The position numbers and the translations under genes are program-made. Source: an uncultured Alphaproteobacteria bacterium (GTDB lineage: Bacteria; Pseudomonadota; Alphaproteobacteria; GCA-002720895). Taken from it: a stretch of 34,990 nucleotides of DNA. Below are positions 4,727 to 32,062 of this stretch, piece by piece. Location of the stretch: NCBI GenBank assembly GCA_902607475.1, contig CACLKH010000010.1, forward strand, positions 1 to 34,990, in the 5' to 3' direction. The first letter of the stretch is position 1. Each line of letters opens with the position of its first letter. The notes beneath the pieces were generated by a model that was not told the origin of the DNA, ran no database searches, and saw only the letters and a list, made by a program, of their open reading frames with translations.

Positions 4727-6187
4727 ATGTCACAGAATATATCTGAAAAAATTTTGTCATTATTAAATAGAAAAATTTTTTGTTTAGGAGATTTAATGTT
4801 AGATAAGTATATTATTGGTACGACTAACCGCATATCTCCTGAAGGACCTATACCTGTTTTAGATATAAAGAAAGAAGTTAAGATGTTGGGTGGTGTTGGG
4901 AATGTTGTTAGAAACTTATGTACGTTAGCAGTAGAAACTCATTTAGTTAGTTTACTCGGAAATGATACAGTAAGTAAAGAAGTAGAAAAAAAATTAGATA
5001 AAATAAAAGTTAACAAAAATATAGTTAAGGATTCTAATAGACCGACAATTATAAAGTCACGTTTTATAGCAAATAATCAACAAATACTTAGAGTAGATAA
5101 AGAAAAAATAGTTCCTATTAGTAAAAGTACAGAAAAAAAAATATACGAATATTCAAAAAAAGAGATTTTAAAAGCAGATGCGGTTATAATATCAGATTAC
5201 AACAAAGGCCTAATAACAAAAAATATATTAAAAAAAATAATAAGTTTTTCAAAAAATCATAAGAAACCTGTAATACTAGATCCTAAAAGTACCGATTTTG
5301 AGAAATATAAAGGAGTTACAATTATTACTCCAAATATTAAAGAGTTAGAAGAGGTAATGAAAAAAAAATTAATTAATGATAAAGAAATTATTAATGCTTC
5401 CAGAGAACTAATTTCAAAATTTAAATTTAGCCATTTATTAGTAACTATGGGCAAACTTGGAATGATTTTAGTTTCAAAAAAAAAAAAGAATGTAATTAAA
5501 TTAAATGCAGAAGCAAAAGAAGTTTTTGATGTTTCAGGTGCAGGGGATACAGTTGTATCTTTTATAGCTGCAGGGATAGCTTGTTCATTAAAAATTGATG
5601 ATGTTGTTAAAATTGCAAATATTGCCGCTGGTATAGTAGTAAATAAAACAGGTACATCAGTAGCACATTTATCTGAGATGCTTGTTTCTGTTAATAAAAA
5701 TAATTATAGTTTATCAAAAGTTATGGATTTATATGAAGTAGAGAAAGTTTTAAATTTTTGGTTAAAAAAAAAAGAAAAAATTGGCTTTACTAACGGCTGC
5801 TTTGACTATCTTCATCCTGGACATGTTTCTTTGTTTCAGCAAGCAAAACAAAATTGTTCAAAGTTAATCGTTGCAGTAAACTCTGATAATTCTATTAAAA
5901 AAAGTAAAGGTCCTCTTAGACCAAAACAAAAGTTAAATACAAGACTCCAAGTTTTAAATTCAATACCATTTGTTGATTTAATTATTGTTTTTTCTGATAA
6001 AACACCTCTTAGTATTATTAAAAAAATTAGACCAGATTTATTGATTAAAGGAAGTGATTATAAAGAAAATCAGATTGTTGGTGCAAAAGAAGTTAAAAAA
6101 TATGGAGGAAAAATTTTAAGAGCTAAAATATTAAATAATTTTAGCTCATCAATAATTATCGACGAAATTTTGAGTACTTCCTTTTAA
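4727..6187 (+). CDS. hldE: Bifunctional heptose 7-phosphate kinase / heptose 1-phosphate adenylyltransferase
   Basis: HldE phosphorylates heptose 7-phosphate at C1 and, after removal of the C7 phosphate by GmhB, adenylylates heptose 1-phosphate. Both domains are present in the fused form (486 aa). The N-terminal PfkB/ribokinase domain (about 15-320) has DLMLDKYIIGTTNRISPEGP, the GGVGNVVRNL substrate loop, and the catalytic-base motif DVSGAGDT near 267. The C-terminal cytidylyltransferase-like domain begins around 352 with GFTNGCFDYLHPGH, which contains the HxGH nucleotide-binding motif. It follows gmhA in the same operon. gmhB and hldD, needed to finish ADP-L-glycero-heptose, are not in this window. 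Its stop overlaps that of the convergent asparaginase gene by a few bases. Confidence 0.96.
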   Translation: MSQNISEKILSLLNRKIFCLGDLMLDKYIIGTTNRISPEGPIPVLDIKKEVKMLGGVGNVVRNLCTLAVETHLVSLLGNDTVSKEVEKKLDKIKVNKNIVKDSNRPTIIKSRFIANNQQILRVDKEKIVPISKSTEKKIYEYSKKEILKADAVIISDYNKGLITKNILKKIISFSKNHKKPVILDPKSTDFEKYKGVTIITPNIKELEEVMKKKLINDKEIINASRELISKFKFSHLLVTMGKLGMILVSKKKKNVIKLNAEAKEVFDVSGAGDTVVSFIAAGIACSLKIDDVVKIANIAAGIVVNKTGTSVAHLSEMLVSVNKNNYSLSKVMDLYEVEKVLNFWLKKKEKIGFTNGCFDYLHPGHVSLFQQAKQNCSKLIVAVNSDNSIKKSKGPLRPKQKLNTRLQVLNSIPFVDLIIVFSDKTPLSIIKKIRPDLLIKGSDYKENQIVGAKEVKKYGGKILRAKILNNFSSSIIIDEILSTSF

Positions 6188-17282: not shown

Positions 17283-18266
17283 ATGGATATTTCTATTTTT
17301 AAAAAAAGCGGTATCAATGATTTTAAATTAAAACCAATTAAATCTGATGCATCATTCAGAAAATATTTTCGCGTTATTATTAAAAATCAGAAAAAAAAAT
17401 TATTGTTAGTTAATTCTCCAAAGAAAACTGAAAATAATTTGGGATATTTAAAAACTACAAGTATTTTAGAAAAAATGAATTTATCAGTTCCCAAAATTAT
17501 TAATTTTGATATTTCCAAAGATTTTTTTTTGATTGAAGATTTTGGTATAAATACATATACAAATTCATTAAAAAATGGGGAAAGTGAATTTAAGCTTTAT
17601 AATTTAGCTACGGATATTTTGTTACATATAAATAAACATTCAAAAAGTCTAGAAAAAGAATTGCCAAAATATACAAATAAAAAATTAATAGACGAAGTTT
17701 TGTTATTTTTAAAATGGTATTGGCCTGCAATTTATAAAAAACCACCAAAAAAAAGAGTTATTAGTGAATTTGTTAAAATTTGGGAAAATTTATTAAATAA
17801 GAATTTAAAAACAAAAAAAGTATTAGTGCATAGGGATTTTCATATAGATAATCTTTTTTTTCTTAAGAATAGACAAAATCTTAAAGCTTGTGGTTTAATT
17901 GATTTTCAAGATGCAGTTATTGGGCCATCTTCATATGATTTAGTATCACTTTTAGAAGATTCTCGAAGAGATGTGGATAAAAATATTATTTCTAAAATGT
18001 ATAGAAAATTTATAAAAAAGTTATCAAAAAAAGAAAAAGAAAATTTTACTAAAGAATATGAAATTTTAGCAGCTAACCGTCATTTAAAAGTTATTGGTAT
18101 TTTTTCTAGGTTATATATGCGAGATAAAAAAAAAAATTATTTGAAACATATTCCAAGATTGTGGAGATTAACAGAACAAAATTTAAATTTTAATTCATTA
18201 AGTGAATTAAATAAGTGGATTAATAATTTTTTTCCAAAAAAATTTAGAATTAAACCAAGGATTTAA
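17283..18266 (+). CDS. amgK: Aminoglycoside-phosphotransferase-like sugar kinase, AmgK-like
   Basis: A 327-residue kinase of the APH/choline kinase fold. The N-lobe has SDASFRKYFRV; the catalytic loop is VHRDFHIDNLFF (around 187-198); the metal-binding Asp lies in GLIDFQDAVIGP. AmgK phosphorylates the anomeric position of N-acetylmuramic acid or GlcNAc in the peptidoglycan-recycling route that bypasses de novo UDP-MurNAc synthesis. The following gene, one base after the stop, is a MurU-like nucleotidyltransferase, the next enzyme of that route, which supports the call. The symbol is assigned from this pairing and from the locus order; substrate is inferred. Confidence 0.82.
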   Translation: MDISIFKKSGINDFKLKPIKSDASFRKYFRVIIKNQKKKLLLVNSPKKTENNLGYLKTTSILEKMNLSVPKIINFDISKDFFLIEDFGINTYTNSLKNGESEFKLYNLATDILLHINKHSKSLEKELPKYTNKKLIDEVLLFLKWYWPAIYKKPPKKRVISEFVKIWENLLNKNLKTKKVLVHRDFHIDNLFFLKNRQNLKACGLIDFQDAVIGPSSYDLVSLLEDSRRDVDKNIISKMYRKFIKKLSKKEKENFTKEYEILAANRHLKVIGIFSRLYMRDKKKNYLKHIPRLWRLTEQNLNFNSLSELNKWINNFFPKKFRIKPRI

Positions 18267-18267
18267 T

Positions 18268-18948
18268 ATGGGTATCTCAACAATCATGATTCTTGCAGCT
18301 GGTCTTGGTAAGAGAATGAAATTATATACGAAGAATATTCCAAAACCATTAATAAAAATTAGAGGTGAAACTTTAATTGAAAAAATAATAAAAAAATTAG
18401 AAATTAAAGGTTTTAAAAAAGTAGTTATAAATATTTTTTATTTAAAAAATAAAATAAAAAAAGAATTAACTAATAAATTTAAAATAAAAATTCATTATTC
18501 TGAGGAAAAAGTTTTATTAAACACAGGGGGTGGAATTAAAAATGCTATAAAAATTTTAAAGGTAAAAGAATTTTTTGTCATTAATAGTGATATTATTTGG
18601 GAAGAAAAAACAGATAGCCCTTTTGATCAATTAAATAAGTTTTGGAATAAAGATAAGATGGATGCTCTTTTATTATTATACCCAAAAAAGAAAAAAATAG
18701 GCGACTATAATATAAATAAATCAAATAGGATTATTTCTAATAAAAATAAACCGAAGTATATTTTTACAGGTATACAGATTCTTAAATCTAAAATTTTTTT
18801 AAAAAAAAGAGAAAAAATTTTTCATTTATCATCAATTTATGAGCAATTAATTGAAAAAAAAAGACTTTTTGGCTTAGTTTACAACGGAAAATGGTTTCAT
18901 ATTGGTACATTAGAAAGTTTGAAAGAATATGAAAAAATGTTAAAATGA
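18268..18948 (+). CDS. murU: Sugar-1-phosphate nucleotidyltransferase, MurU-like
   Basis: A 226-residue GT-A-fold nucleotidyltransferase. The N-terminal signature is MILAAGLGKRM with the following KPLIKIRGETLIE; NTGGGIKNA is the nucleoside/sugar loop; VINSDIIWE carries the metal-binding Asp; WFHIGTLESL is the C-terminal end of the fold. MurU makes UDP-MurNAc from MurNAc-1-phosphate and UTP in cell-wall recycling. It is translationally coupled to the amgK-like gene (TAATATG junction). trxA follows 13 bp downstream, at the point where addB and addA stand in many alphaproteobacteria. Confidence 0.83.
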   Translation: MGISTIMILAAGLGKRMKLYTKNIPKPLIKIRGETLIEKIIKKLEIKGFKKVVINIFYLKNKIKKELTNKFKIKIHYSEEKVLLNTGGGIKNAIKILKVKEFFVINSDIIWEEKTDSPFDQLNKFWNKDKMDALLLLYPKKKKIGDYNINKSNRIISNKNKPKYIFTGIQILKSKIFLKKREKIFHLSSIYEQLIEKKRLFGLVYNGKWFHIGTLESLKEYEKMLK

Positions 18949-18961
18949 TTTTTTTTTTACT

Positions 18962-19282
18962 ATGAGCATACAATCAATAAAAGAATCTTCTTTTGAAGAT
19001 GAAGTTGTTAATTCAGATACTCCAGTTTTAATAGATTTTTGGGCAGAGTGGTGTGGTCCTTGTAAAGAAATTTCTTCTGTTTTGGAGGAAATTGCTGATG
19101 AAATGAAAAATAAATTAAAAATTGTAAAAATAAATATCGATGAAAATCCAAATATACCAAATCAATATGGAATTCAAAGCATACCTACATTAATAATTTT
19201 TAAAAAAGGGGAACCAATAGCAACAAAGGTTGGTAGCGGTATAAAGTCAGAATTACTAACTTGGATTGAAAGATCAATATAA
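18962..19282 (+). CDS. trxA: Thioredoxin
   Basis: A 106-residue classical cytosolic thioredoxin, a general disulfide reductant. The active site is WCGPC (Trp30, Cys31, Cys34) in IDFWAEWCGPCKEIS; the cis-proline loop is QSIPTLIIF; no signal peptide. It converges on folC with a 2-bp gap, the same relative placement as in other alphaproteobacteria but without addAB before it. Confidence 0.97.
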   Translation: MSIQSIKESSFEDEVVNSDTPVLIDFWAEWCGPCKEISSVLEEIADEMKNKLKIVKINIDENPNIPNQYGIQSIPTLIIFKKGEPIATKVGSGIKSELLTWIERSI

Positions 19283-19284
19283 AA

Positions 19285-20643
19285 CTATTTTTTTAGTAAT
19301 TTAGATACTTCTTTGTACATATATAAAGATCCACATATAAGTATTTGACCTGGTGATTCATTTAATAATAATTTTCTTATTGCATGTTTTATATTTTTAG
19401 CAGTTTCTACATTAAATTCATTTAATTTAGCTATTTCATAAAGTTTTTTATTTGGATAATAAGGAGAATTACTTTTTATAGTTACCGTTATTAGTTTAGT
19501 AGTAATTTTTTTAAAAGAATTTAGAAAATCTTTTGGATTTTTTGAGTTTAACATACCAAAAATTAAATATAATTTTTTTACATTCCATTTTTTAAATGTT
19601 TTTGCTAGAGCTCTGCTTGCACTTTTGTTATGCCCTCCATCAAACCAGAACTTCCATTTTTTATTATTTATTTTTTTTGAAAATAATTCTTTGTTTAAAT
19701 ATATTTTTTGTAATCTTCCCGTCCATTTAACAGTTTTTAAGCCTTTTTTTACAAAATTCTTGTTAAATTTTTTTTTCATTATTAAATTAAAAGCTTTTAA
19801 AGCTATACCAGCATTAATAATTTGATGTTCTCCTATCAAGTTTGGTTGAGGATATTTTTCTTTTTTGTTATTTTTTAGATTATTAAAAAAAATAATATGA
19901 TTTTTTTTTTCATTTTTTTTTATAAACCAATCTTTTTTATAAAAAAAAGTTTTTACATTAAAATTTTTTGCTACTTTTTTTATAATTTCAATAGCTTTTT
20001 TTGTTTGTTTTCCAATAACAACAGGTGAATTTTTTTTAATAATACCTGCTTTTTCTTTTGCTATTTGTTTTATATTTGAACCTAAAAAATTTTTGTGATC
20101 AATTGATATTTCATTAATAATTGTGATAATTGGTTTTTTTATAATATTTGTTGCATCTAATCTTCCCCCGAGGCCAGTTTCAAGTATTGTAAAATCAGCT
20201 GGTTTTATTTTAAATGCTAGAAATGCAGCAGCTGTAGTCATTTCGAAAAAAGTTATTGGCTTTCCGTCATTTTTTTTATTACACATATCAAGTAAAACTT
20301 CTAGAAACTCATTAGATATATTTTGATCGTTTAAATTAATTCTTTCATTAAAATTAATTAAATGAGGAGATGTGTATGTATTTACAGTAAAGCCAGAGGC
20401 TTGAATAAATGATTTTAAAAAAGCAAGAACAGAACCTTTTCCATTTGTTCCAGCTATATGTATTATATTTTTAATTTTTTTTTCAGGATTTCCTAGTTTA
20501 TATAAAAGATTATTTATACGCTCAAGAGATAAGTCAATTTTTTTTGGATGTAATTGTTCTAATTTTTTTTCAAGGCTAATTTCTAAATTTTTAACTTTTA
20601 AATCTTTTTTACTAATATAAGTGGATTTTGTCTGATAAAGCAT
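19285..20643 (-). CDS. folC: Folylpolyglutamate synthase / dihydrofolate synthase
   Basis: FolC joins glutamate to dihydropteroate and extends the polyglutamate tail of folates. At 452 aa it has the Mur-ligase fold: ATP-binding loop HIAGTNGKGS, LETGLGGRLDATN, SIDHKNFLG with the conserved His, and the C-terminal domain with WFDGGHNKSASRAL. The sequence is extremely Lys/Asn-rich, as expected from base composition. It ends the long minus-strand block, 13 bp after accD. Confidence 0.95.
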   Translation of the reverse strand: MLYQTKSTYISKKDLKVKNLEISLEKKLEQLHPKKIDLSLERINNLLYKLGNPEKKIKNIIHIAGTNGKGSVLAFLKSFIQASGFTVNTYTSPHLINFNERINLNDQNISNEFLEVLLDMCNKKNDGKPITFFEMTTAAAFLAFKIKPADFTILETGLGGRLDATNIIKKPIITIINEISIDHKNFLGSNIKQIAKEKAGIIKKNSPVVIGKQTKKAIEIIKKVAKNFNVKTFFYKKDWFIKKNEKKNHIIFFNNLKNNKKEKYPQPNLIGEHQIINAGIALKAFNLIMKKKFNKNFVKKGLKTVKWTGRLQKIYLNKELFSKKINNKKWKFWFDGGHNKSASRALAKTFKKWNVKKLYLIFGMLNSKNPKDFLNSFKKITTKLITVTIKSNSPYYPNKKLYEIAKLNEFNVETAKNIKHAIRKLLLNESPGQILICGSLYMYKEVSKLLKK

Positions 20644-20656
20644 TAAAAGATTTTGT

Positions 20657-21511
20657 CTAATTTTTATTTTCTATAAATTTTAAAATTTTATATATTTTAT
20701 TTTTTAAATCTTTTCTATGCACAACCATATCTATCATTCCGTGTTCTAAAAGATAATCAGCCGTTTGAAAGTTATCAGGTATGCTTTCTTTTATAGTTTG
20801 TTCTATTACTCTTCTTCCTGCAAAACCAATTGTCGCACCTTTTTCAGCTATCAATATATCTCCAAGCATAGCAAAAGACGCACATACACCACCGGTTGTT
20901 GGATCAGATAAAACAACAATATAAGGGATTCTATTTTCTTTTATTTTTTGAATTGCAGCTATAGTTCGAGGCATTTGCATCAAAGACAAAATACCTTCTT
21001 GCATTCTTGCACCACCAGATGATGGAATAATAATTAAAGGTATATTTTTTTTTACTGAAATTTCACTGGCTTTTACAATGGAATTTCCAACGTTTATTCC
21101 CATTGATCCTCCCATAAAATTAAAGTCAAAAACAACTAATAAGACTTCAATACTTTCAATTTTTCCTTCAGCTAAAATTACAGCATCATCTTCTTTTGTT
21201 TTTTTTTTAGCCTGTTTAAGTCTATCTTTATATTTTTTTTTATCTTTAAAGGATAAAGGATCAATTTTACTAGGTGGAACTTTAATTTTTTCATATTTTC
21301 CATCATCTAAGAGAAATTTAATTCTTGTATCTGAAGGTAATCGCATATGTGTTCCGCACTCATTACATACTCCAAGAGTTTTTTCAAAATCTTTGTAATA
21401 AATCATTATTTGTTTCTCACATTGACATTTTATCCATAGATTTTTTGGTATATTCTTTTTTTTAACTAAAGATTCTAATTTAGGTTTGATATAATTTGTT
21501 AGCCAATTCAT
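20657..21511 (-). CDS. accD: Acetyl-CoA carboxylase carboxyltransferase subunit beta
   Basis: AccD, with AccA, transfers the carboxyl group from biotin to acetyl-CoA, making malonyl-CoA for fatty-acid synthesis. It is 284 aa. The carboxyltransferase core has FNFMGGSMGINVG, IPSSGGARMQEG and SDPTTGGVCASFAMLGD. The N-terminal zinc ribbon has four cysteines, Cys29, Cys31, Cys49 and Cys52, so the first knuckle is C-x-C, whereas AccD usually has C-x2-C (E. coli CDSC). The spacing change is compensated by an extra residue later. accD-folC adjacency is common in proteobacteria. It starts 5 bp after trpA. Confidence 0.96.
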   Translation of the reverse strand: MNWLTNYIKPKLESLVKKKNIPKNLWIKCQCEKQIMIYYKDFEKTLGVCNECGTHMRLPSDTRIKFLLDDGKYEKIKVPPSKIDPLSFKDKKKYKDRLKQAKKKTKEDDAVILAEGKIESIEVLLVVFDFNFMGGSMGINVGNSIVKASEISVKKNIPLIIIPSSGGARMQEGILSLMQMPRTIAAIQKIKENRIPYIVVLSDPTTGGVCASFAMLGDILIAEKGATIGFAGRRVIEQTIKESIPDNFQTADYLLEHGMIDMVVHRKDLKNKIYKILKFIENKN

Positions 21512-21516
21512 AATAT

Positions 21517-22332
21517 TTATAGTGCCGAAGTTAAACTTTTAATATAATTCAATACAAAATTAATTAATTTTATTTTATTATATTTTTTTTTAAGTGCTTC
21601 TTCCACTCTTTTAATGATAGATGACCCTACAACTACTGCATCAGCATATTCAGATAATTTTTTAACATCTTTTTTATTTTTTATTCCAAAACCAACAGCA
21701 ATTGGAAGCCTTGTAAGTTTTTTTAAGTTTTTTATTTCTGTTTGAAGTCTTATATTAGATTTATAATTTGCTCCCGTAATTCCTGTTATAGAAATGTAGT
21801 ATATAAAACCAGAAGAGTTTTTGATAATTTTTTTAAACCTATTTTTATCTGTTGTTGGAGTTGCTAATTTTATAAAATGTATTTTATTTTTTATAATAGG
21901 CAAACATAATTCATTATCTTCTTCAGGAGGTAAATCAACAACAATTACTCCATTTATTTTATTTTTTTTTATCTCTTTTATAAAATTATTTATGCCGAAT
22001 TTATGAATTGGGTTGTAATAACCCATTAAAATAATAGGCGTAATTATATCTTTTTTTCTAAATTTTTTTATTAAATTAAATGTTTTTTTTAAATTCATTT
22101 TATTTTTTATTGCTCTATCATTGGCTTTTTGTATAACAGGTCCATCAGCCATTGGATCAGAGAAGGGCATACCTAATTCAATTATGTCTACTCCAGAATT
22201 GGGAAGTTTTTCTAAAATTTTGTATGATGTATTAAAATCAGGATCACCAGCAGTTATAAAAGATATAAATCCACATTTTTTTTTTTTTTTTAATTCATCA
22301 AATTTTTTTTTTAATAAATCTTGTTGTGGCAT
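21517..22332 (-). CDS. trpA: Tryptophan synthase alpha chain
   Basis: TrpA cleaves indole-3-glycerol phosphate to indole, which is channelled to TrpB. The 271-aa TIM barrel keeps catalytic Glu52 (IIELGMPFSDP) and Asp63 (MADGP), and the phosphate loop GFGIKNKKD followed by VVVGSSII. It lies 5 bp after trpB and 5 bp before accD in one transcript. Confidence 0.97.
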   Translation of the reverse strand: MPQQDLLKKKFDELKKKKKCGFISFITAGDPDFNTSYKILEKLPNSGVDIIELGMPFSDPMADGPVIQKANDRAIKNKMNLKKTFNLIKKFRKKDIITPIILMGYYNPIHKFGINNFIKEIKKNKINGVIVVDLPPEEDNELCLPIIKNKIHFIKLATPTTDKNRFKKIIKNSSGFIYYISITGITGANYKSNIRLQTEIKNLKKLTRLPIAVGFGIKNKKDVKKLSEYADAVVVGSSIIKRVEEALKKKYNKIKLINFVLNYIKSLTSAL

Positions 22333-22337
22333 TGAAT

Positions 22338-23543
22338 TTAGATATTAATTTTTAATTTTTTTGCAACAGTAAAAATATCTTTATCTCCTCTTCCACACAT
22401 GTTCATTACAATAATATTATTTTTTGGCATTCTTGGAGCTTTTTTAATTAAATAAGCAAGAGCATGGCAGGGTTCTAATGCAGGAATAATACCTTCGATT
22501 TTTGTACAAATTTTAAATGCATCTAGCGCCTCATTATCTGTAACACTAACATATTTAACTCTTTTATTATCTTTTAACCATGCATGTTCAGGGCCCACTC
22601 CAGGGTAGTCTAGACCAGCGGATATTGAATGTGGTTCTATAATCTGTCCATCTTTATCTTGTAAAATATAAGTTTTACTTCCATGTAGAACTCCTAATTG
22701 ACCTTTTGCAATTGATGCAGCATGCTTTTTATTAAGACCTTCGCCTGCAGCTTCAACAGCAATCATTTTTACTTTTCTATCATTTAAAAATGGATAAAAA
22801 AGACCCATTGCATTAGAACCACCCCCTACACACGCTATTAAAAAATCTGGCAGCCTACCTTCGGCTTTTTTTATTTGATCTTTTGTTTCATATCCAATTA
22901 CTGATTGAAAATCTCTAACCATTTCGGGATAAGGGTGAGGTCCAGCAACACTACCAATTATATAAAAAGTATTATTTACGTTTGTTACCCAATCTCTCAA
23001 AGCTTCATTCATAGCATCTTTTAAAGTTTTGGATCCACTTTTAACTTTTTCTACTTTTGCTCCTAGAAGTCTCATTCTAAAAACATTTGGCATTTGCCTT
23101 TTATAATCAACCTCGCCCATATATATAGTGCATGGAAGATTAAATAATGCACAAACAGTAGCAGTTGCAACTCCATGCTGTCCAGCACCAGTTTCTGCTA
23201 TTATTCTTTTTTTACCCATACTTTTGGCAAGAAGTATTTGTCCAAGTGTATTATTAATTTTATGGGCTCCCGTATGATTTAATTCATCCCTCTTAAAATA
23301 AATTTTTGGACCATTAAGTTTTTTTGAAAGATTTTCTGCAAAATATAAAGGAGAAGGTCTTCCCACATAATCTTTTAAGTATTTTTTAAATTCATTAATA
23401 AATTTTTTTTTCTTTTTAATACTTTTGTATGCTTTTTCTACTTCTAGAATTAAAGGAACAAGTGTTTCAGCAACAAATCTTCCTCCATATTTTCCAAAAT
23501 GTCCTGATGTATCAGGGACTGATTTATAGGTATTTCTTTTCAT
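22338..23543 (-). CDS. trpB: Tryptophan synthase beta chain
   Basis: TrpB condenses indole and serine to tryptophan using PLP. At 401 aa it is full length. The PLP lysine is Lys95 in HTGAHKINN, the substrate loop is [12 protein letters not shown], and the PLP phosphate is bound by [10 protein letters not shown]. The conserved GRFVAETL opens the protein. It starts 2 bp after trpF. It is less skewed in composition than trpF and pyrF, as expected for a highly conserved enzyme. Confidence 0.98.
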
Positions 23544-23545
23544 AT

Positions 23546-24190
23546 TTATAATTTAGTTGCTAATTTTAAAAATTTATTTATTTTTTTAATATTTTTTTTA
23601 CCAGGTATTGTTTCAAGACTAGAAGAAACATCTATAAATCTTATATTAGAATCTTTAATTGCTTGTTCCAAGTTATTAATATTAATGGCTCCAGATAAAA
23701 TTAATTTTTGTTTATCTTTAATTTTTTTAAATAAATTCCAATCTAATTTTCTACTTTTTTTTTTAAAACTTAATTTTTTTTTTGTTACTATTTTTGTATC
23801 TATTAAAATATAATCTGAAACTTTTTTGAAATTAGAAATTTTTTTTATATCATTCTTATTTGATATTTTTAATGCTTTAATAATTTTAGTTTTTGATATT
23901 TTTTTTACATTTCGTATAAAACCAGGCGTTTCATTTCCATGAAATTGTAAATAATCAAGATCTACAGTTTCGGTAATTTTTTTTATTTCTTTAATATTTG
24001 TATTTGCTATAACACCTACTCTTTTTATTTTTTTTTTAGCAAAATTAGAAATTTTCTCTGCTGTTTTTAGATTTATAAATCTAGGGGATTTATTATAAAA
24101 AATAAATCCTACCATTTTTGCTTTTCCTTTAATACATGCTTTTACATGATTAATAGATTTAACGCCACATATCTTTACATTGAGTACCAT
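23546..24190 (-). CDS. trpF: Phosphoribosylanthranilate isomerase
   Basis: TrpF isomerises phosphoribosylanthranilate to the carboxyphenylaminodeoxyribulose phosphate in tryptophan synthesis. The 214-aa barrel has the catalytic Cys in [16 protein letters not shown] with a conserved His, [15 protein letters not shown] and IDVSSSLE. The start codon overlaps the pyrF stop in a TAATG junction. The remaining tryptophan genes (trpE, G, D, C) are not in the window. Confidence 0.94.
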
Positions 24191-24894
24191 TAATTTTTTT
24201 CTAAATAATTTTTTATTTCTTTATTAATTAACTTAAGAGTTTTTTTTGGTTTTTTTGATTCTGTTATTGGTCTGCCAATAATAATGTAAGTTGCACCTTT
24301 TTTTATAGCGCTTAAAGGATCCATTGTTCTTTTATGTTCATTTTTTTTATTTTTTTTTGTTCTAATACCTGGAACAAAAATTGTAATATTTTTTTTAATT
24401 TTTTTTGTTATTTCGAGATCTTTTGGTGCAAGAATTAATCCGGAAGTATTATTTTTTAATGCATTGAGCACTAATTTTTTTATTTCATTTTGTATTGATT
24501 GTTTTATTCCTATTTCATTAATACTTTTTTGATCATGGTGAGATAAAAGTGAGACAGTTAATATTTTTGTAAAATTAGATGCTTTTGTAGCAGCTTTTAT
24601 CATGCTACTTCCTCCTAGACCATGTATACTTAAATAATTTACTTTTAGAGAATCTACGACCTTCACTGCTTTATAGACAGTAGTAGGAATATCATGAAAT
24701 TTTAAATCTAAAAAAATTGGTAATTTGTATTTTTTAAATTTTTTAATTATGTTTGGTCCATAATTAGAAAATAGTTCTTTTCCTATTTTTAAACCTGCAA
24801 GATCATTTTTTAATAGTTTAATAAGACCTTCAGCAGTTTTTATGTTGTTTGTATCTAAAGCTAAAAATACTCTTTTAAATTTTTTTTTCAGCAA
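24190..24894 (-). CDS. pyrF: Orotidine 5'-phosphate decarboxylase
   Basis: PyrF makes UMP from OMP, the last step of de novo pyrimidine synthesis. The 234-aa barrel has LALDTNN, the catalytic DLKFHDIPTTV tetrad region (Asp63, Lys65, Asp68), GLILAPKDLE, VPGIRTKK and IIGRPITES. The start is TTG at 24894, the only standard start near the conserved N-terminus. It begins 9 bp after ihfB and overlaps trpF by one base. Confidence 0.95.
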   Translation of the reverse strand: MLKKKFKRVFLALDTNNIKTAEGLIKLLKNDLAGLKIGKELFSNYGPNIIKKFKKYKLPIFLDLKFHDIPTTVYKAVKVVDSLKVNYLSIHGLGGSSMIKAATKASNFTKILTVSLLSHHDQKSINEIGIKQSIQNEIKKLVLNALKNNTSGLILAPKDLEITKKIKKNITIFVPGIRTKKNKKNEHKRTMDPLSAIKKGATYIIIGRPITESKKPKKTLKLINKEIKNYLEKN

Positions 24895-24903
24895 AATATC
24901 AGA

Positions 24904-25185
24904 TTACTTAGGATTTAATTTTTTAAATAAAATTTTCCCCATTTTAAATTTTGGGTGAACTTTTTTTTCTATTTCTATATTTTTTCTATTTTGAGGATTT
25001 ATACCTATTCTTTTATTTCTTGTTTTTGTAAAAAAAGAACCAAAACCTCTAATTTCAATTCTTTTTCCTTCTGCTAAAGCTTTGGTTACTTCTCTAAAAA
25101 AGACGTTCACTATATTTTTAATCTCTGAAATTTTGTATTTATTATTTTTACTAAGTAAAGTTTTAACAAGATTTGATTTATTCAT
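24904..25185 (-). CDS. ihfB: Integration host factor subunit beta-like DNA-binding protein
   Basis: A 93-residue HU/IHF-family protein that bends DNA. The helical N-terminus is followed by EGKRIEIRGFGSF and the DNA-intercalating arm RIGINPQNRKNIEI, where the arm-tip Pro is present; the C-terminus contains HPKFKMGKILFKKLN. The position between rpsA and the trpF/pyrF genes matches ihfB (himD) in alphaproteobacteria, which is why I prefer IHF-beta over HU. The sppA and lapA-type genes often found here are absent. Confidence 0.92.
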   Translation of the reverse strand: MNKSNLVKTLLSKNNKYKISEIKNIVNVFFREVTKALAEGKRIEIRGFGSFFTKTRNKRIGINPQNRKNIEIEKKVHPKFKMGKILFKKLNPK

Positions 25186-25203
25186 TTTATAAGTTCTAAA
25201 TTA

Positions 25204-26880
25204 TTATTTTTTTTTCTTTTTTTTTTTTTCTCCTAAAATCTTTCCTAGAGTTGCACCGCTATCTAATGAACCAAACTCTTTTTTAATCTTTTTTTGCTCT
25301 TTAGATTCAATCTCTTTTATTGATAATACAACAATTTTACTTTCATTATCAATTTTTTTTATCATTGCATCAAGTTTTTCATTTGCTGCATAACGTCTTG
25401 GATTTTGTTCAGATTCATCCATAGACAAGTTTTCTTTATTAATAAAACCATCAAGGTTGTTATCTAATTTTACTTTAACTCCATTATCTTTTACATGAAT
25501 AACAGAGCAAGTTACTACATTTTTTATTTTAATATCTTTAATTTTTTCTTTAAATGGCTTATCATCAAGCTGTTTTATACCTAAAGAAATTCTTTGTTTT
25601 TCTTCATTAACATCTAAAATTATTGTTTTAACAGTATCTCCAGTTTTAAAATTTGCTGCTGATTTATTATCCCATTCCCAATCTAAATCAGAAATATGAA
25701 CCATTCCATCTAAATTCTCTTCTAAATTTACAAAAATTCCATATTCTGTTATATTTCCTACTTTGCAATCTACAATTTTTCCTTTTTTGTATTTTTTAGA
25801 ATATTTTATCCATGGGTTAGCACTTTCTTTTTTCATTCTAAAACTTAGTTTTCTTTTTTCCAAATCAAGCTCAAGTATTGTTACATCAACTAAATCTCCC
25901 ATTGAGACAATGTCGCTTGGATTAGTTTTTTTTTTATCCCATGTCATTTCAGATACATGAATAAGACCTTCTATACCATCTTCAAGCTCTATAAAAGCTC
26001 CATAATCTGTAATTTTACTAACTTTTCCAGAATAATTTTTTCCTTCTTTATACTTTTTTTCAATTTTTTCCCATGGATCTTTACTTAATTGTTTAATACC
26101 TAATGATATTTTATTTGATTCAGTATTACATTTTAAAATTTTAACTTTTATATTTTGCCCAATTTTTAAAAAATCAGATGGATGATTAATTCTTTTCCAA
26201 GAAATATCAGTTAAATGAATAAGTCCATCTATCGTGCCAAGATCTACAAAAGCTCCATAATCTGTAATATTTTTTACAATTCCATTTGCTGATTTTCCTT
26301 CTTTTAAATTTTTTTTAGAATCTTTTATGTTTAGTTTGAGATTTTCTTCTAAATAAGCCTTTCTTGAAATTACAATGTTTCCTCTTTCTTTATCAATTTT
26401 TATTACTTTAAATGATAGTTTTTGTTCTACGAGATGATTAATATCTTTTATTGGTTTAACATCTACTTGACTACCTGGTAAAAAAGTAATAACGCCGTCA
26501 ACATCTACAGTATATCCGCCTTTAACTTTACCATAAATTTTTCCATCTACAGGTGTATCTTTTTTTAAGCTTTCATTAAATGAATTAAAAGCAACCTCTT
26601 TTTTTGCTTTCTCTCTGCTTAAAACCGCCTCACCATTTTTATCTTCTATTCTTTCAACAAAAACATCAATTTTATCTCCTACTTTAATTTCTTTCTCTTT
26701 ATCACAAAATCTTAGTTCATCTATAGATATCCTTCCTTCGCTTTTCAAACCAACATCTACTAATGCATGATTGTTATCTATTGATATAACTTTTCCATTG
26801 ACCACTTTACCTTCAAAATTTTTAATTTTTTTTAGAGATTGGTTTAGTAAAGCTTCAAAATTTTCAGTATTTTCAGTCAT
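25204..26880 (-). CDS. rpsA: 30S ribosomal protein S1
   Basis: S1 binds mRNA and helps initiation on leaders with weak or no Shine-Dalgarno sequence. The protein has 558 residues and six S1 (OB-fold) repeats at about 20-85, 103-168, 195-262, 280-348, 366-435 and 455-517; repeats 3 and 4 are the clearest (ITDYGAFVDLGTIDGLIH, ITDYGAFIELEDGIEGLIH). It ends in a lysine tail of seven residues. ihfB follows after 18 bp. In most proteobacteria cmk lies just upstream; here only a 53-bp gap separates it from aroA. Confidence 0.97.
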   Translation of the reverse strand: MTENTENFEALLNQSLKKIKNFEGKVVNGKVISIDNNHALVDVGLKSEGRISIDELRFCDKEKEIKVGDKIDVFVERIEDKNGEAVLSREKAKKEVAFNSFNESLKKDTPVDGKIYGKVKGGYTVDVDGVITFLPGSQVDVKPIKDINHLVEQKLSFKVIKIDKERGNIVISRKAYLEENLKLNIKDSKKNLKEGKSANGIVKNITDYGAFVDLGTIDGLIHLTDISWKRINHPSDFLKIGQNIKVKILKCNTESNKISLGIKQLSKDPWEKIEKKYKEGKNYSGKVSKITDYGAFIELEDGIEGLIHVSEMTWDKKKTNPSDIVSMGDLVDVTILELDLEKRKLSFRMKKESANPWIKYSKKYKKGKIVDCKVGNITEYGIFVNLEENLDGMVHISDLDWEWDNKSAANFKTGDTVKTIILDVNEEKQRISLGIKQLDDKPFKEKIKDIKIKNVVTCSVIHVKDNGVKVKLDNNLDGFINKENLSMDESEQNPRRYAANEKLDAMIKKIDNESKIVVLSIKEIESKEQKKIKKEFGSLDSGATLGKILGEKKKKKKK

Positions 26881-26933
26881 AAAATCAATTTTATAAACTT
26901 TATGCAGTTTTTTGTAATTTTAAAAGCTTTTTT

Positions 26934-28256
26934 TTAATTTTTTTTTGAAAAATTTGCTCCTATATCTTTCATTATTGTTACAAAATTAGGAAAACTTGTT
27001 TTTATACAATTTACGTTATCAATAATAATATTTTTTTTAGAAGCTAAACCCATTACTAAAAATGCCATTGCTATTCTGTGATCACAATAAGTTTTAATTT
27101 TAACATCTCTAGTAATATTAATTTTTTTATTTCCAGTTATTTGAAGACCATCATTTTTTTTTTTAACTTTTATTTTACACGTAGTTAAGCCTTCATATAA
27201 AGATTTTATTCGATCACTTTCTTTATTCCTAAGTTCACTACCTCCACTAAAAGATGAATTTCCTTTAGCAAAAGCGGCTAAAACAGAAAATATAGGAATT
27301 TCATCAATCATGTTTGCTACTGTTTCTTTTCCTAAATGAACTCCTTTTAAGTTACTTGATTTAAAAGTAATATCTCCGACCTGCTCATTTGAAATTCTTT
27401 TTTTGTTGGAAATTTTTATTTTAGCATTCATTTTTTTTAAAATATTAAAAAAAGTTGTTCTTGTTTTATTTATATTTACTTTCATTATTTTAATTTCCGA
27501 TTCAGGTGTAATTAGAGCAGCAGAACCAATTATTGAAGCGGCAGAAGGATCGCCAGCAATTGAAATATTTTTTGCTTTTAATTCTTTTTGACCAGTTATT
27601 TTAATTATTTTTTTTTTTTTAAATTTTTTGATTTGAATTTTTGCACCTATTTTTCTTAACAAAATTTCAGTATGATTTCTGGTTGGAGTATTTTCAATTA
27701 TAGTTGTTAAACCTGGTGAATTAAGTGATGCTATTAATATCGCTGATTTAATTTGGGCAGATGGATTTTTTTGATTATAAATAATTGGCATAGTTTCATT
27801 AAAACCTTTAATGATAATTGGCAGCTTGTTATTTTTGGAATTAATTTTTGCACCCATTTTTCTTAATGGTTTTATTAATTCATGCATATTTCTATTACTT
27901 AAACTTTTATCTCCAATAAATTTAGTTTCAAAATTTTGATTACACAAAAGTCCCAACATTAATCTTGTAGCTGTACCAGAATTTCCCATGTAAAGGTTTT
28001 TTTTTGTTGAACTTAATCCCCCTATTCCTACTCCTGATATAATAGTTGAAGTTTTTTTTTTAATAATTTTTACACCTAGCAATTTTAAATTTTTTATAAG
28101 ATTATTTACGTCATCAGAATAAGATATTCCTTTGATTCTTGTTGACCCAATGGCTGTTGATCCTAAGATTAGGACTCTTTGAGAAATAGATTTATCTCCT
28201 GGAATTTCAATAACTCCATTTAACGAACTACTTTGTTTTGAACTAAATTGATTCAA
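26934..28256 (-). CDS. aroA: 3-phosphoshikimate 1-carboxyvinyltransferase (EPSP synthase)
   Basis: AroA joins phosphoenolpyruvate to shikimate 3-phosphate, the penultimate step to chorismate. The protein has 440 residues, GDKSISQR near residue 20 (Lys22, Arg27), GNSGTATRLMLG for PEP binding, PSAQIKSAIL (the SAQ-x-K pattern of the class II type), the catalytic Asp in MIDEIPIFSVLA, KESDRI and CDHRIAMAF. The start is TTG at 28256, since no ATG or GTG lies at the conserved N-terminus. It heads the minus-strand block and feeds chorismate to the tryptophan and folate branches encoded further along it. Confidence 0.96.
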   Translation of the reverse strand: MNQFSSKQSSSLNGVIEIPGDKSISQRVLILGSTAIGSTRIKGISYSDDVNNLIKNLKLLGVKIIKKKTSTIISGVGIGGLSSTKKNLYMGNSGTATRLMLGLLCNQNFETKFIGDKSLSNRNMHELIKPLRKMGAKINSKNNKLPIIIKGFNETMPIIYNQKNPSAQIKSAILIASLNSPGLTTIIENTPTRNHTEILLRKIGAKIQIKKFKKKKIIKITGQKELKAKNISIAGDPSAASIIGSAALITPESEIKIMKVNINKTRTTFFNILKKMNAKIKISNKKRISNEQVGDITFKSSNLKGVHLGKETVANMIDEIPIFSVLAAFAKGNSSFSGGSELRNKESDRIKSLYEGLTTCKIKVKKKNDGLQITGNKKINITRDVKIKTYCDHRIAMAFLVMGLASKKNIIIDNVNCIKTSFPNFVTIMKDIGANFSKKN

Positions 28257-28369
28257 TTTTTTTAATTTATTAATTAGTATATTATTATCTTTACTAAATA
28301 ATAAATTTAAATTAAAAATAATTAAATTTTTTTGTTTATTTATAATTTATTTTATTTATATATTGAGTT
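28257..28369. promoter_or_regulatory. Divergent promoter region aroA / FYDLN-acid gene
   Basis: A 113-bp spacer of almost pure A and T separates the two divergent genes. A TATAAT at 28341-28346, 23 bp before the plus-strand ATG, is a candidate -10 box. No clear -35 element or operator is visible; the composition makes promoter calls uncertain. Confidence 0.35.
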
Positions 28370-28699
28370 ATGGTAAAATCATCTTGGGGAGTTAAAAGAA
28401 CATGCCCTTGTGGTAACGGGGTTAGATTTTATGATCTAAATAAAAAAGAAATTGAATGCCCTAGTTGTGGAGAAACTATAAATGTTGAACATTTGTCAGT
28501 ATCAACTCTTGAAAATAATTTAAGAAAAAAACCACATGCAAAAGTTTTAGAAGAATCAAAGACATCCAATGCAAAAAATAAAAAAATTTCAAATGTTAAA
28601 GATACAGATGTAGAAATAGATTCAGATGATGATCCAAAAACACAGGTAAAGGAAATAATTGGTGATAAATTAAAAGACAAAGATAAAGAAAAAGAATAA
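28370..28699 (+). CDS. FYDLN-acid family protein (TIGR02300-like)
   Basis: A 109-residue protein with an N-terminal zinc-ribbon-like part and an acidic, lysine-rich tail (about 55-109). The family name motif is VRFYDLNKKEIECPSCG. Cysteines are Cys12, Cys14, Cys30 and Cys33; as I recall, relatives have C-x2-C in the first knuckle, whereas here it is C-x-C with one extra residue before FYDLN. Function is unknown, but the family is typical of alphaproteobacteria and usually lies beside aroA, as here. Confidence 0.88.
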   Translation: MVKSSWGVKRTCPCGNGVRFYDLNKKEIECPSCGETINVEHLSVSTLENNLRKKPHAKVLEESKTSNAKNKKISNVKDTDVEIDSDDDPKTQVKEIIGDKLKDKDKEKE

Positions 28700-28707
28700 T
28701 TCTTTTT
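28689..28707. terminator. Possible bidirectional AT-rich terminator
   Basis: A 9-bp perfect inverted repeat, AAAAAGAAT-A-ATTCTTTTT, spans the stop codon of the FYDLN-acid gene and the stop of the convergent membrane-protein gene. It is followed by T-rich sequence on both strands. It has almost no GC, so it is only a candidate. Confidence 0.35.
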
Positions 28708-29084
28708 TATTTATGTTTCTTTTTTAAATCTTTTTTTAAATCTTCATGATCACCAATTGCAATATGATATTTGCTTTTTATTATATATTTTTCTAATAAA
28801 GGTATAATAGGAAGAACAATAAGTCCTCCTAGAAAAATACCTAAGGCGGCTTCTCTTAAATCAGGATCTATAAGTGAAGCAATTAAATCAGCTAATGAAT
28901 GTGCTATTATTACTCCAATAATACCTGCAATAAAACCATTAGATATTAATTTTAAGAATCTATTTATACTCCACCCTGTATAAAATCCTAATAACATAAT
29001 TCCAACATGAACAACTCCGAAGATAAATCCTTTTAATAAATATTTATCCTGTAAGTAAGAAAGGTTTTCTATTATATGTTGCAT
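28707..29084 (-). CDS. Three-helix membrane protein of unknown function
   Basis: A 125-residue protein with three predicted membrane helices at about 17-38, 45-70 and 81-106, and a charged, lysine-rich C-terminal tail presumably in the cytosol. The Gly-rich helices (GFIAGIIGVIIAHSLADLIA) suggest tight packing. I do not recognise the family. It is convergent with the FYDLN-acid gene (7-bp gap) and lies upstream, on the same strand, of no other gene, so it is probably transcribed alone. Confidence 0.72.
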   Translation of the reverse strand: MQHIIENLSYLQDKYLLKGFIFGVVHVGIMLLGFYTGWSINRFLKLISNGFIAGIIGVIIAHSLADLIASLIDPDLREAALGIFLGGLIVLPIIPLLEKYIIKSKYHIAIGDHEDLKKDLKKKHK

Positions 29085-29141
29085 AAATTATGAATTATAA
29101 TTTATATCATAAAAATAATTTTTGTTATAAATATTTATTTA

Positions 29142-29282
29142 TTAACTTTTCTTTGTAAACGCAAATTCTCTATAAGATTGTATTGATCCTCTGCCATAAT
29201 TATAGTTTTTCTCAAATTTAGCTAAAAATATAGCAGATGTTATTAAAAATGCAGATATGGTAATAAAATAAATTAATTTCAT
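29142..29282 (-). CDS. Small single-pass membrane protein (46 aa)
   Basis: A short reading frame with ATG start and TAA stop, 46 codons long. The first 22 residues, MKLIYFITISAFLITSAIFL, form one hydrophobic helix; the rest is polar, with KNYNYGRGSIQSYREFAF, and ends in KKS. The hydrophobic start, aromatic-rich tail and lack of any other gene in this stretch suggest a real small membrane protein, but its size makes chance possible. No function can be assigned. It occupies part of the 383-bp spacer between two longer genes. Confidence 0.5.
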   Translation of the reverse strand: MKLIYFITISAFLITSAIFLAKFEKNYNYGRGSIQSYREFAFTKKS

Positions 29283-29399
29283 TTTTTTGATTTGTTAAAA
29301 ATTAATAATAGTTACAATTTATATTTAATAAAAAATAACCATTAATCTAATTTATATTTGTTATAGACATTATAGATTTAAATGATAATTGGTTTAAAA

Positions 29400-29474
29400 G
29401 GGACTATAGATTGGTTATAAGAGTTCTTCGCTGGAAATGAAGAGGCTGTCGATTTGATCCTATCTAGTTAAATT
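29400..29474 (+). pseudogene. Degenerate tRNA-like element, anticodon-arm GGA
   Basis: The region reads like a decayed tRNA. The anticodon arm is excellent: stem CTTCG (29426-29430), loop CTGGAAA with T33 and anticodon GGA (29431-29437), stem TGAAG (29438-29442), extendable by two pairs. A D-loop-like TTGGTTA precedes it, and a variable loop AGGCT plus T-loop-like TTTGATC follow. GGGACTA at 29400 can partly pair with TAGTT at 29465. The 5' strand of the D stem and the T stem do not pair, there is no CCA end, and GGA with a short variable loop does not fit bacterial tRNA-Ser. A possible promoter (TTGTTA, 17 bp, AATGAT) lies just upstream at 29358-29386. It may be a tRNA pseudogene or attachment-site remnant. 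Confidence 0.4.
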
Positions 29475-30022
29475 CCTTTTTTATCGATAATAGAAATTTG
29501 TAGATCTTCTTTCTTTTTTTCTGAAATCATTTTTAAATTAGTAACTATTAGACGAAGGTCTACACTGCTGAACCTCTTGCCAGTTCCTATTTTTGTACAC
29601 ATTATCTCAACTTTATTGTGCATATCACTTGTATCATTATTTTGTACTTTATATTCATAATCTCTATCTGTTGTAATATTTAATTTAACACCATACTTTT
29701 CACTAAAATGCTTTTCTAGAGCACGTAAACTGTTTCTGCACATTATGAATTCATCTAATTTTTCAGATTCAAAATAAGTGTTAGTAGAAATCTTCCAAAC
29801 TCGTTTTGTCATACTTGTGCAATAAACAATGTGTTTTTTAAATAACTTATTTGGCACCTTCCCTTTCGTACGATATGTATCAGACATTGAATCTATGCAT
29901 TTTTCTCCAAATTTGATTCCAAACAATTCTATAATTTCTTCTGGTTGTCTTTCCTCTATTACTTCAGCCCATACACTATGAACTGGGAAAAAAAGAAGAA
30001 GTATGATTAAGAGTTTTTTCAT
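29468..30022 (-). CDS. Secreted protein of unknown function
   Basis: A 184-residue protein with a clear signal peptide (MKKLLIILLLFFPVHSVWA, cleavage after residue 19). The mature part begins near ELFGIKFGEKC, has four cysteines spread over about 100 residues (possible two disulfides in the periplasm), and ends in a charged tail. I do not recognise the family. A TATAAT on the minus strand at 30043-30038 could be its promoter, shared with the divergent NTF2-like gene. Its stop codon lies at the 3' edge of the tRNA-like element. It belongs to the accessory islet. Confidence 0.7.
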   Translation of the reverse strand: MKKLLIILLLFFPVHSVWAEVIEERQPEEIIELFGIKFGEKCIDSMSDTYRTKGKVPNKLFKKHIVYCTSMTKRVWKISTNTYFESEKLDEFIMCRNSLRALEKHFSEKYGVKLNITTDRDYEYKVQNNDTSDMHNKVEIMCTKIGTGKRFSSVDLRLIVTNLKMISEKKKEDLQISIIDKKGI

Positions 30023-30078
30023 TTTTTTTATATTAAAATTATAGCACTGTGTTCCGTGATTTATTAGAAAAATTTATA

Positions 30079-30114: not shown

Positions 30115-30480
30115 ATGAACAATACAACTAATGATAATGAAATGATTGAAAAGACCGTGCAGTTCTATATTGATGGAGCAAAGTCCGGAAAAGGTGATGA
30201 TATGAAACCAGCATTCCACAAAGATGCGACGATCTTTGGTTATATTGGGGACGACTTATTTGCTGGACCAATACAAAAGCTTTTTGACTGGAATGATAAA
30301 AATGGACCAGCAACTGAAATTGAAACAAAAATAACTAGCATTGATGTAGTTGGAACTATTGCAACTGTTCGTCTTGAATCTGATAACTGGACGGGTCATA
30401 AATTTACTGATTTTTTTACTCTACTTAAGGTAGAGGGTACATGGAAAATAATGAATAAAGTATTTCATCTCCATGCTTAA
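30115..30480 (+). CDS. NTF2/SnoaL-like protein, putative lumazine-binding type
   Basis: A 121-residue protein of the cone-shaped NTF2 fold. The N-terminal helix VQFYIDGAKSGKGDDMKPAF, then FHKDATIFGYIGDD, and the C-terminal strands FTDFFTLLKVEGTWKIMNK match the pattern I know as Lumazine_bd_2/SnoaL-like. Such proteins are isomerases, small-molecule binders or protein partners; the role here is unknown. By hand count the gene is about 35% GC, higher than several neighbours (about 22% in samples of trpF). A tautomerase gene follows after 31 bp, probably in the same operon. Confidence 0.85.
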   Translation: MNNTTNDNEMIEKTVQFYIDGAKSGKGDDMKPAFHKDATIFGYIGDDLFAGPIQKLFDWNDKNGPATEIETKITSIDVVGTIATVRLESDNWTGHKFTDFFTLLKVEGTWKIMNKVFHLHA

Positions 30481-30499
30481 CTTATCTATATTATAATTT

Positions 30500-30506
30500 A
30501 AGGAGG
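30500..30506 (+). promoter_or_regulatory. Strong Shine-Dalgarno of the tautomerase gene
   Basis: AAGGAGG, a near-complete match to the anti-Shine-Dalgarno sequence, lies 5 bp before the ATG at 30512. A TATAAT at 30492-30497 just upstream could give the gene its own promoter, though AT-rich spacers often contain one. Confidence 0.6.
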
Positions 30507-30511
30507 AATCA

Positions 30512-30877
30512 ATGCCCTTTGTCACAATTACTTTACTAAAGGGTAAAGGTAAGGAATATATTAAAGCTGTTACAGATGGAATAAATTCTGCAGTTATAGA
30601 AACTATGGGATTTCCTGATGATGACCGATACCAAGTAGTTCACCAAGTAAGTGAGGATTGTCTTCAATATCAAGGTAGAACTGATGACAGAGTAATGATG
30701 CATTTAGTTATGCGCTCGGGTCGCTCAAATAAATCAAAGCAAGCGTTTTATAAAAAGGTGGTTAAAAATTTGTCCAAAAAACCTGGAATTAAACCTGAAA
30801 ATGTTTTTATAACAATTACTGAAAATCAAGATATTGATTTTTCATTTAAGGATGGAATTGCTCAATTCGTTGTTTAA
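30512..30877 (+). CDS. Tautomerase-superfamily protein
   Basis: A 121-residue protein beginning MPFVTITLLKG, so removal of Met exposes the catalytic Pro1 of the tautomerase superfamily. The two beta-alpha-beta units (about 2-60 and 65-115) are the longer Tautomerase_2 type, with GFPDDDRYQVVHQ, HLVMRSGRSNKSKQAFY and the C-terminal FKDGIAQF that resembles the 'W-F-x-G-x-A-Q' ending I recall from this family. Members isomerise keto-enol substrates or dehalogenate small organic acids; the substrate here is unknown. It follows the NTF2-like gene and converges on metZ with a 15-bp gap. Confidence 0.88.
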   Translation: MPFVTITLLKGKGKEYIKAVTDGINSAVIETMGFPDDDRYQVVHQVSEDCLQYQGRTDDRVMMHLVMRSGRSNKSKQAFYKKVVKNLSKKPGIKPENVFITITENQDIDFSFKDGIAQFVV

Positions 30878-30892
30878 AAACTTTTTATCTCA

Positions 30893-32062
30893 TTAAACTT
30901 TCTTTAATGCCAAATCTATATCTTTTATAATATCTTCCACATCTTCTAAACCAACTGATAATCGAACCAGTTTGTTATTTATATTTAAAAAATTTTTATC
31001 TTTTTTTAAAATTTTCAAATGGGTAGTTGAAGCTGGATGAATAATTAAACTTTTTACATCACCTAAATTATTTGAGATATGTATCATTGAAAGTTTATTT
31101 AAAAATTTAAAAGTTGTATTTTTATCTCCTTTTATATAAAAACTAATTATATTTCCAAATCCATCCATTTGTTTGTCTATCAATTTTTTTTGTGAATACT
31201 CTGAAAGTCCTGGAAAAATTGTTTTTTGAATTTTTGGATGATCTTTTAAAAAAAATGCTACCCTTGATGCATTTTTACAAAGTTGTTCTATTCGTAAAGG
31301 ATATGTTTCTAAACTTTTTAATAATATCCAAGCTGTAAAGGGATCCATAGTGGGACCGGTGTTGCGATAAAAAAATTTAAGTTTTTCTTCATAAAACTTT
31401 TTAGAAGAAAGTAACAGGCCTCCCATAGTTCTTCCCTGTCCATCTATATGTTTAGTGGTGGAATAAATAACAATATCTGCGCCATAATTTAAAGGTTTTT
31501 GCAAAATTGAAGAAGCAAAAACATTATCTACAATAACTTTTGCATTATAATGATGTGCGATTTCTGAAACTGATTCAATATCAACAATTTCAAGAGTTGG
31601 ATTGGATGGTGTTTCAAAAAAAATACAGGAAGTTTTTTTATTTATTGCTTTGCGCCATTGTTGTAAGTTTTTTCCATCAATAAAAACAACTTCAATTCCA
31701 TATTCTGGCAAAATATCTTTTATAATATTATAGCAAGATCCAAACAAAGCTCTTGATGCAACAACCCTATCACCTTTTTTGCTTTGACACATTAATGATG
31801 CAAATACTGCTGACATTCCGGAAGAAAACGCTCTACATGATTCAGCTCCTTCAAGCTCTGCAAATTTTTTTTCTAATTGATTAACTGTTGGATTATCAAA
31901 TCTAGAATATTGATACCTATCTATTTTCTCATTAAATACATCTTCAGCTTCCTGTGCGCTGTTATAAACATAACCGGAAGTTAAATATAATGGCAGGGAT
32001 GTTTCTTGAAAAACGCTTTTATTGGTTTCTTTATGTATAAAATCAGTAATTTTTTTTTTCAT
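30893..32062 (-). CDS. metZ: O-succinylhomoserine sulfhydrylase
   Basis: A 389-residue PLP enzyme of the Cys/Met metabolism family. It probably makes homocysteine from O-succinylhomoserine and sulfide. It has YQYSRFDNPT, SSGMSAVFASL for PLP binding, FFETPSNPTLEI, the Asp in VIVDNVFAS, and the PLP Lys204 in STTKHIDGQGR; the 'KHIDGQGR' form is typical of MetZ rather than of cystathionine synthases. It acts near AhcY, which also yields homocysteine. I found no SAM-II or SAM-V riboswitch in its upstream spacer, although alphaproteobacterial met genes often carry one. Confidence 0.88.
   Translation of the reverse strand: MKKKITDFIHKETNKSVFQETSLPLYLTSGYVYNSAQEAEDVFNEKIDRYQYSRFDNPTVNQLEKKFAELEGAESCRAFSSGMSAVFASLMCQSKKGDRVVASRALFGSCYNIIKDILPEYGIEVVFIDGKNLQQWRKAINKKTSCIFFETPSNPTLEIVDIESVSEIAHHYNAKVIVDNVFASSILQKPLNYGADIVIYSTTKHIDGQGRTMGGLLLSSKKFYEEKLKFFYRNTGPTMDPFTAWILLKSLETYPLRIEQLCKNASRVAFFLKDHPKIQKTIFPGLSEYSQKKLIDKQMDGFGNIISFYIKGDKNTTFKFLNKLSMIHISNNLGDVKSLIIHPASTTHLKILKKDKNFLNINNKLVRLSVGLEDVEDIIKDIDLALKKV

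Follow-up and report, generated by a model that had tools for sequence, protein, structure and literature searches.

The window, the whole 34,990-nucleotide stretch analysed here, belongs to an assembly of 841 kb in 40 contigs (72% complete). The named relatives of the lineage are MarineAlpha6_Bin4 and a MAG labelled Pelagibacteraceae SP38, so the host is a marine member of the Alphaproteobacteria whose genome is small. Towards the right end of the window, a degenerate tRNA-like element lies between the surroundings of a FYDLN_acid family gene and an orphan gene that runs against it on the opposite strand (Table 1). Comparison with a same-genus genome (G002), which carries an intact tRNA-Ala(GGC) gene at this place, defines the features listed.

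Table 1. Features around the tRNA-like element, with the related tRNA fragments on contig C4 of the same assembly (window coordinates unless C4 is named).
Feature	Position	Strand	Remarks
FYDLN_acid family gene (PF09538, TIGR02300-type)	28370..28699	+	Pfam 1.4e-16; precedes tRNA-Ala(GGC) as a conserved neighbour in Alphaproteobacteria
Spacer between membrane-protein gene and relic, with small ORF 29142-29282 (minus)	29085..29399	.	Alignable with G002, 73-82% by segment
tRNA-Ala(GGC) relic	29400..29467	+	tRNA positions 1-68; 51/68 against intact G002 gene; tRNA-Ala model 18 bits
Slot of the last 8 tRNA bases	29468..29475	+	Relative CTCCACCA, window TTAAATTC; G002 homology already over
Orphan gene, 184 aa, probable signal peptide MKKLLIILLLFFPVHSVWAE	29468..30022	-	Stop codon abuts relic; candidate islet cargo
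Promoter-like motif ATCACGGAACACAGTGCTATAAT upstream of orphan gene	30038..30060	-	4 copies in all 841 kb of the assembly, allowing up to 3 mismatches
Lumazine-binding-like, tautomerase and Cys/Met-metabolism PLP enzyme genes	30115..32062	.	Pfam; 78-84% DNA identity to relatives G003, G004 and G005
tRNA-Ala(GGC) 3' copies on C4	53780-53828; 57285-57339; 59670-59722	one orientation	tRNA positions 22-28 to 76

Within 29400-29475, the anticodon arm CTTCG-CTGGAAA-TGAAG is complete and reads as the initial annotation gave it, but it is not perfect, as was claimed: the fifth pair of its stem, 31-39, is G-U rather than Watson-Crick. Several features of a functional tRNA-Ala(GGC) are missing. Fifteen of the 21 cloverleaf pairs form (acceptor stem 5/7, D stem 3/4, anticodon stem 5/5, T stem 2/5), the last eight bases are replaced, the anticodon is GGA and ARAGORN called no tRNA, here or anywhere in the window. 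Both the GG of the D loop and the terminal CCA are absent, in agreement with the earlier description of broken D and T stems and no CCA. Pairs kept in G002 and lost here are 1-72 and 2-71 of the acceptor stem, 11-24 of the D stem, and 51-63 and 53-61 of the T stem; G3-U70 is retained, and pair 4-69, G-C in G002, has become A-U. The anticodon loop differs from that of G002 by C36 to A, so that GGC now reads GGA, and by G38 to A. The serine identity once read from the anticodon is therefore mistaken, the anticodon being alanine GGC with a changed third base. A serine tRNA was rejected on account of the variable region, which at 5 nucleotides is no long arm and was rightly judged unfit for a bacterial serine tRNA; the real tRNA-Ser(GGA) of this genome lies elsewhere, at L019 1404-1493. 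We also rejected a functional mis-reading tRNA combining G3-U70 with a serine anticodon, because the 3' end, the D-loop GG and the T stem are lost.

General searches pass over the element. The Rfam general tRNA model gives no match to it even with permissive settings (E up to 10), no other Rfam family matches it, and a 121-bp DNA query containing it returned nothing but A/T-rich chance matches in 60 relatives. A covariance model of tRNA-Ala(GGC), built from 20 alphaproteobacterial genes, matches the relic over its full length (1-76) with 18 bits (E 0.019 over 53 kb), and this is the sole match of the model in the window. The intact G002 gene, which is part of the model's own training set, scores 95.6 bits.

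Synteny identifies the element at once. Among 29 further FYDLN loci taken from relatives, 20 alphaproteobacterial loci have an intact tRNA-Ala(GGC) downstream of the FYDLN gene on the same strand, and several of those without one are cut by contig ends. In G002, the intact gene (L047 36-111, minus) lies 688 nt downstream of FYDLN on the same strand; the relic begins 700 nt downstream of the FYDLN gene of the window. Positions 17469-29467 of the window are collinear with G002 over 12,024 alignment columns at 80% identity (BLAST), and the alignment breaks off within the 3' strand of the acceptor stem, at tRNA position 68. The relic aligns to the G002 tRNA without a gap, and the next best site in the window, on either strand, reaches 30/68. 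Sharing both place and sequence with the intact G002 gene, the element is, on this comparison, an orthologous relic of tRNA-Ala(GGC), and the proposal of a tRNA pseudogene stands. Of the two grounds that had been named for abandoning a tRNA reading, one was found and the other was not: the general tRNA model misses the element, but a matching tRNA occupies the orthologous place in a relative. The case carries the caution that an old tRNA relic can be missed by a general tRNA model and revealed by synteny. The intact G002 gene has peculiarities of its own. Positions 32 and 38 of its anticodon loop are C and G, against A32 and T38 in each of the 19 other alphaproteobacterial copies aligned, and its T stem contains a T-T mismatch.

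Beyond 29467, the window is unrelated to the sequence that follows the tRNA in G002, which confirms that the left edge of an islet lies at the element, as first proposed. The gene group beyond this edge had been taken as foreign, and this holds for one gene. The best relative of the orphan protein among 96 genomes is a protein of an islet on contig C4 of the same assembly, similar at the N terminus (50% over 40 aa, E 0.003), and the two genes share 92% of their DNA over 48 bp in the signal-peptide region. Pfam gave no confident family for the orphan gene or the C4 islet proteins except a pilin N-terminal motif. The promoter-like motif upstream of the orphan gene points the same way, its other three copies in the assembly being located in the tRNA-Ala-fragment islets of C4. 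The motif nevertheless makes only a moderate link between the orphan gene and these islets, since G003 carries partly similar sequence at the same place, and for the same reason it was rejected as a clean cassette boundary. From about 30033 rightward the window aligns with G003, which has a different gene beyond that point; the islet may thus be a single-gene replacement. The genes at 30115-32062 and the glycosyltransferase gene that follows match genomes of the same genus or family at 75-84% DNA identity. Judged by this similarity, the right-flank genes are therefore not foreign to the lineage; the orphan gene alone is.

A look for an intact tRNA matching the element elsewhere in the genome had been proposed as a check. 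The assembly contains no intact tRNA-Ala(GGC); matching pieces are the three 3' copies on C4, which are 49-55 nt long, lie in a single orientation and are 98-100% identical to the G002 tRNA. The copy at 59670 extends 35 nt into the post-tRNA sequence of G002 with one mismatch. The copies adjoin islets of pilin and orphan genes that carry no recombinase gene, and four tandem type IV pilin-like genes are located between two of them. Arm-like repeats (GACACAATTTTTGCTCAAAA) are present at islet ends on C4, which itself ends just beyond one such repeat. The copies resemble attachment-site duplications, the trace usually left by elements integrating at the 3' half of a tRNA. With three such islet-side copies on one contig, tRNA-Ala(GGC) was therefore an integration hotspot in this genome. 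The near-identity of the fragments to the G002 tRNA also suggests that an intact tRNA-Ala(GGC) existed recently in the lineage or in a donor.

At the window copy itself, the accessory DNA starts within the 3' part of the tRNA, where homology to G002 ends at position 68, and the relic is probably a dead edge of the hotspot. The initial annotation's attachment-site remnant is accordingly plausible, given this junction and the C4 copies, but no partner was found: the window, whose contig ends 5.5 kb past the relic, has no second tRNA 3' fragment and lacks the arm-like repeat as well. With neither partner fragment nor repeat in the window, integration at this copy is no more than plausible. A dedicated integrase was found neither in the assembly nor in the islets of the window and C4, and the only tyrosine recombinase of the assembly is an integrase-family protein of XerC/D size on contig C11. 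A search of viral contigs for the intact tRNA 3' end gave none, and no contig-tip overlap joins C10, the contig of the window, to C4; the tips of C32-C40 read as N and gave no information.

We put the probability at about 0.88 that the element is the dead tRNA-Ala(GGC) copy of the FYDLN locus, with integration and subsequent junction damage as its inferred history. A mobile element of the C4 type would have integrated at the tRNA-Ala(GGC) gene next to FYDLN, and the junction would later have been damaged with the loss of the last eight tRNA bases, after which the tRNA gene would have been freed from selection. Alanine codons would now be read by tRNA-Ala(UGC), or else by a tRNA-Ala(GGC) whose intact gene lies in an unassembled part of the genome; such a gene, if there is one, would most likely adjoin the right end of C4.

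The same remains could also have been produced by decay without site-specific integration, with tRNA-Ala(GGC) dispensable in an AT-rich streamlined genome and its 3' end removed when an independent deletion or rearrangement introduced the orphan gene. The codon GCC is rare, accounting for 18 of the 335 alanine codons in 15 ORFs of the window, and tRNA-Ala(UGC) is able to decode every alanine codon; the lack of an attachment-site partner within the window and the right flank common to G003, as expected after an ordinary rearrangement, also fit this course. We nevertheless consider it somewhat unlikely. Homology to G002 breaks off within the 3' end of the tRNA, the place at which elements that target tRNAs join; the orphan gene has both its signal-peptide DNA and a rare promoter-like motif in common with the tRNA-Ala-fragment islets of C4, and the near-identical 3' fragments imply a recent intact copy in the lineage or a donor. 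An unlikely variant of the integration history is that mobile cassettes replaced the host tRNA gene, the FYDLN-side copy having died as an integrated element supplied an intact tRNA-Ala(GGC) or moved it beside the C4 array. If so, a core tRNA function would now depend on a mobile island.

Whatever removed its 3' end, the relic most likely does nothing now. Its identity to G002 (75%) is that of the nearby spacers (73% and 77%), and 15 of the 17 substitutions replace G or C by A or T (G>A 6, C>T 5, C>A 2, G>T 2; in the reverse direction A>G 1 and T>C 1), as expected for selection-free sequence in an A/T-rich genome. Spacer-rate divergence and A/T bias together make a strong, if not final, case for an unconstrained pseudogene, the neutral rate being taken from the single relative G002. 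A tRNA-derived regulatory RNA, as the initial annotation allowed, or a non-canonical tRNA still transcribed here, could account for the survival of the anticodon arm and of five of the seven acceptor pairs, which include G3-U70 and the double change at 4-69. We hold this to be very improbable given the divergence, a predicted fold no better than that of shuffled sequence (z +1.0) and the loss of the CCA, the D-loop GG and the T stem. The consensus scan found no plus-strand promoter before the relic and lends no support to the one suggested at 29358-29386. The element is a fossil of an ordinary tRNA gene and no novel type of RNA. That its likeness to a tRNA arose by chance, for which the silence of ARAGORN and the Rfam general model might be cited, has next to no probability at an orthologous position closing 12 kb of collinear sequence, with 51/68 identities against 30/68 at the next best site.

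Fragments of tRNA genes left by the integration of mobile elements are common in prokaryotes, for which they have been catalogued (PMC9897764). The present locus resembles them in having a partial, non-canonical tRNA gene beside accessory DNA and several islet-side 3'-half copies in the same genome. It differs in that the window holds the original gene with its 5' end complete, aged and degraded along its whole length, instead of a fresh 3' fragment, and in that no partner fragment was found. Another parallel is offered by the additive flexible genomic islands of the streamlined freshwater Ca. Methylopumilus (Methylophilaceae), which are marked by repeats of the 3' end of tRNA-Lys (PMC10872708). 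C4 likewise repeats the 3' parts of one tRNA beside small orphan-gene islets in a streamlined genome, whereas the repeat is 49-55 nt of tRNA-Ala(GGC) here and 20 nt of tRNA-Lys there, the C4 cargo includes tandem type IV pilin-like genes, and the window site is decayed. Tycheposons, the tRNA-bordered islands with a tyrosine recombinase from Prochlorococcus (as reported in PMC10872708), share the location at a tRNA gene; unlike them, the islets of the window and of C4 have no recombinase gene. What the locus adds is that a tRNA gene conserved among Alphaproteobacteria has disappeared from its usual site in a streamlined marine lineage, in a genome where small islets of pilin and orphan genes have that tRNA as their integration hotspot. 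Beyond the lost gene, the hotspot and the caution about synteny, this is ordinary biology.

Several further observations concern the islets and their surroundings. The proteins of the C4 pilin array (L126 11455-13535, corresponding to C4:57454-59534) have near-identical N termini (KGFSLIELLVVVAIIGILAAVGVVAYNGYTK) and differing C-terminal parts, and pilin-like DNA occurs again on contigs C27 and C21. A recurrent motif, approximately ATCACGGATCACGGTGCTATAAT, directly precedes genes for small exported or pilin-like proteins; such sites are found at 30038-30060 in the window, at 5038, 11426, 12021 and 15793 in L126, at 280 in L205 and at 3870 in L215, and the motif may mark a shared regulon. Finally, the intact tRNA-Val(GAC) gene at L022 722-796 (contig C5) is followed about 500 nt downstream by a nearly identical copy of its 3' part, at 1302-1360, and tRNA-Val(GAC) is thus a second tRNA that looks like an integration site in the same genome.
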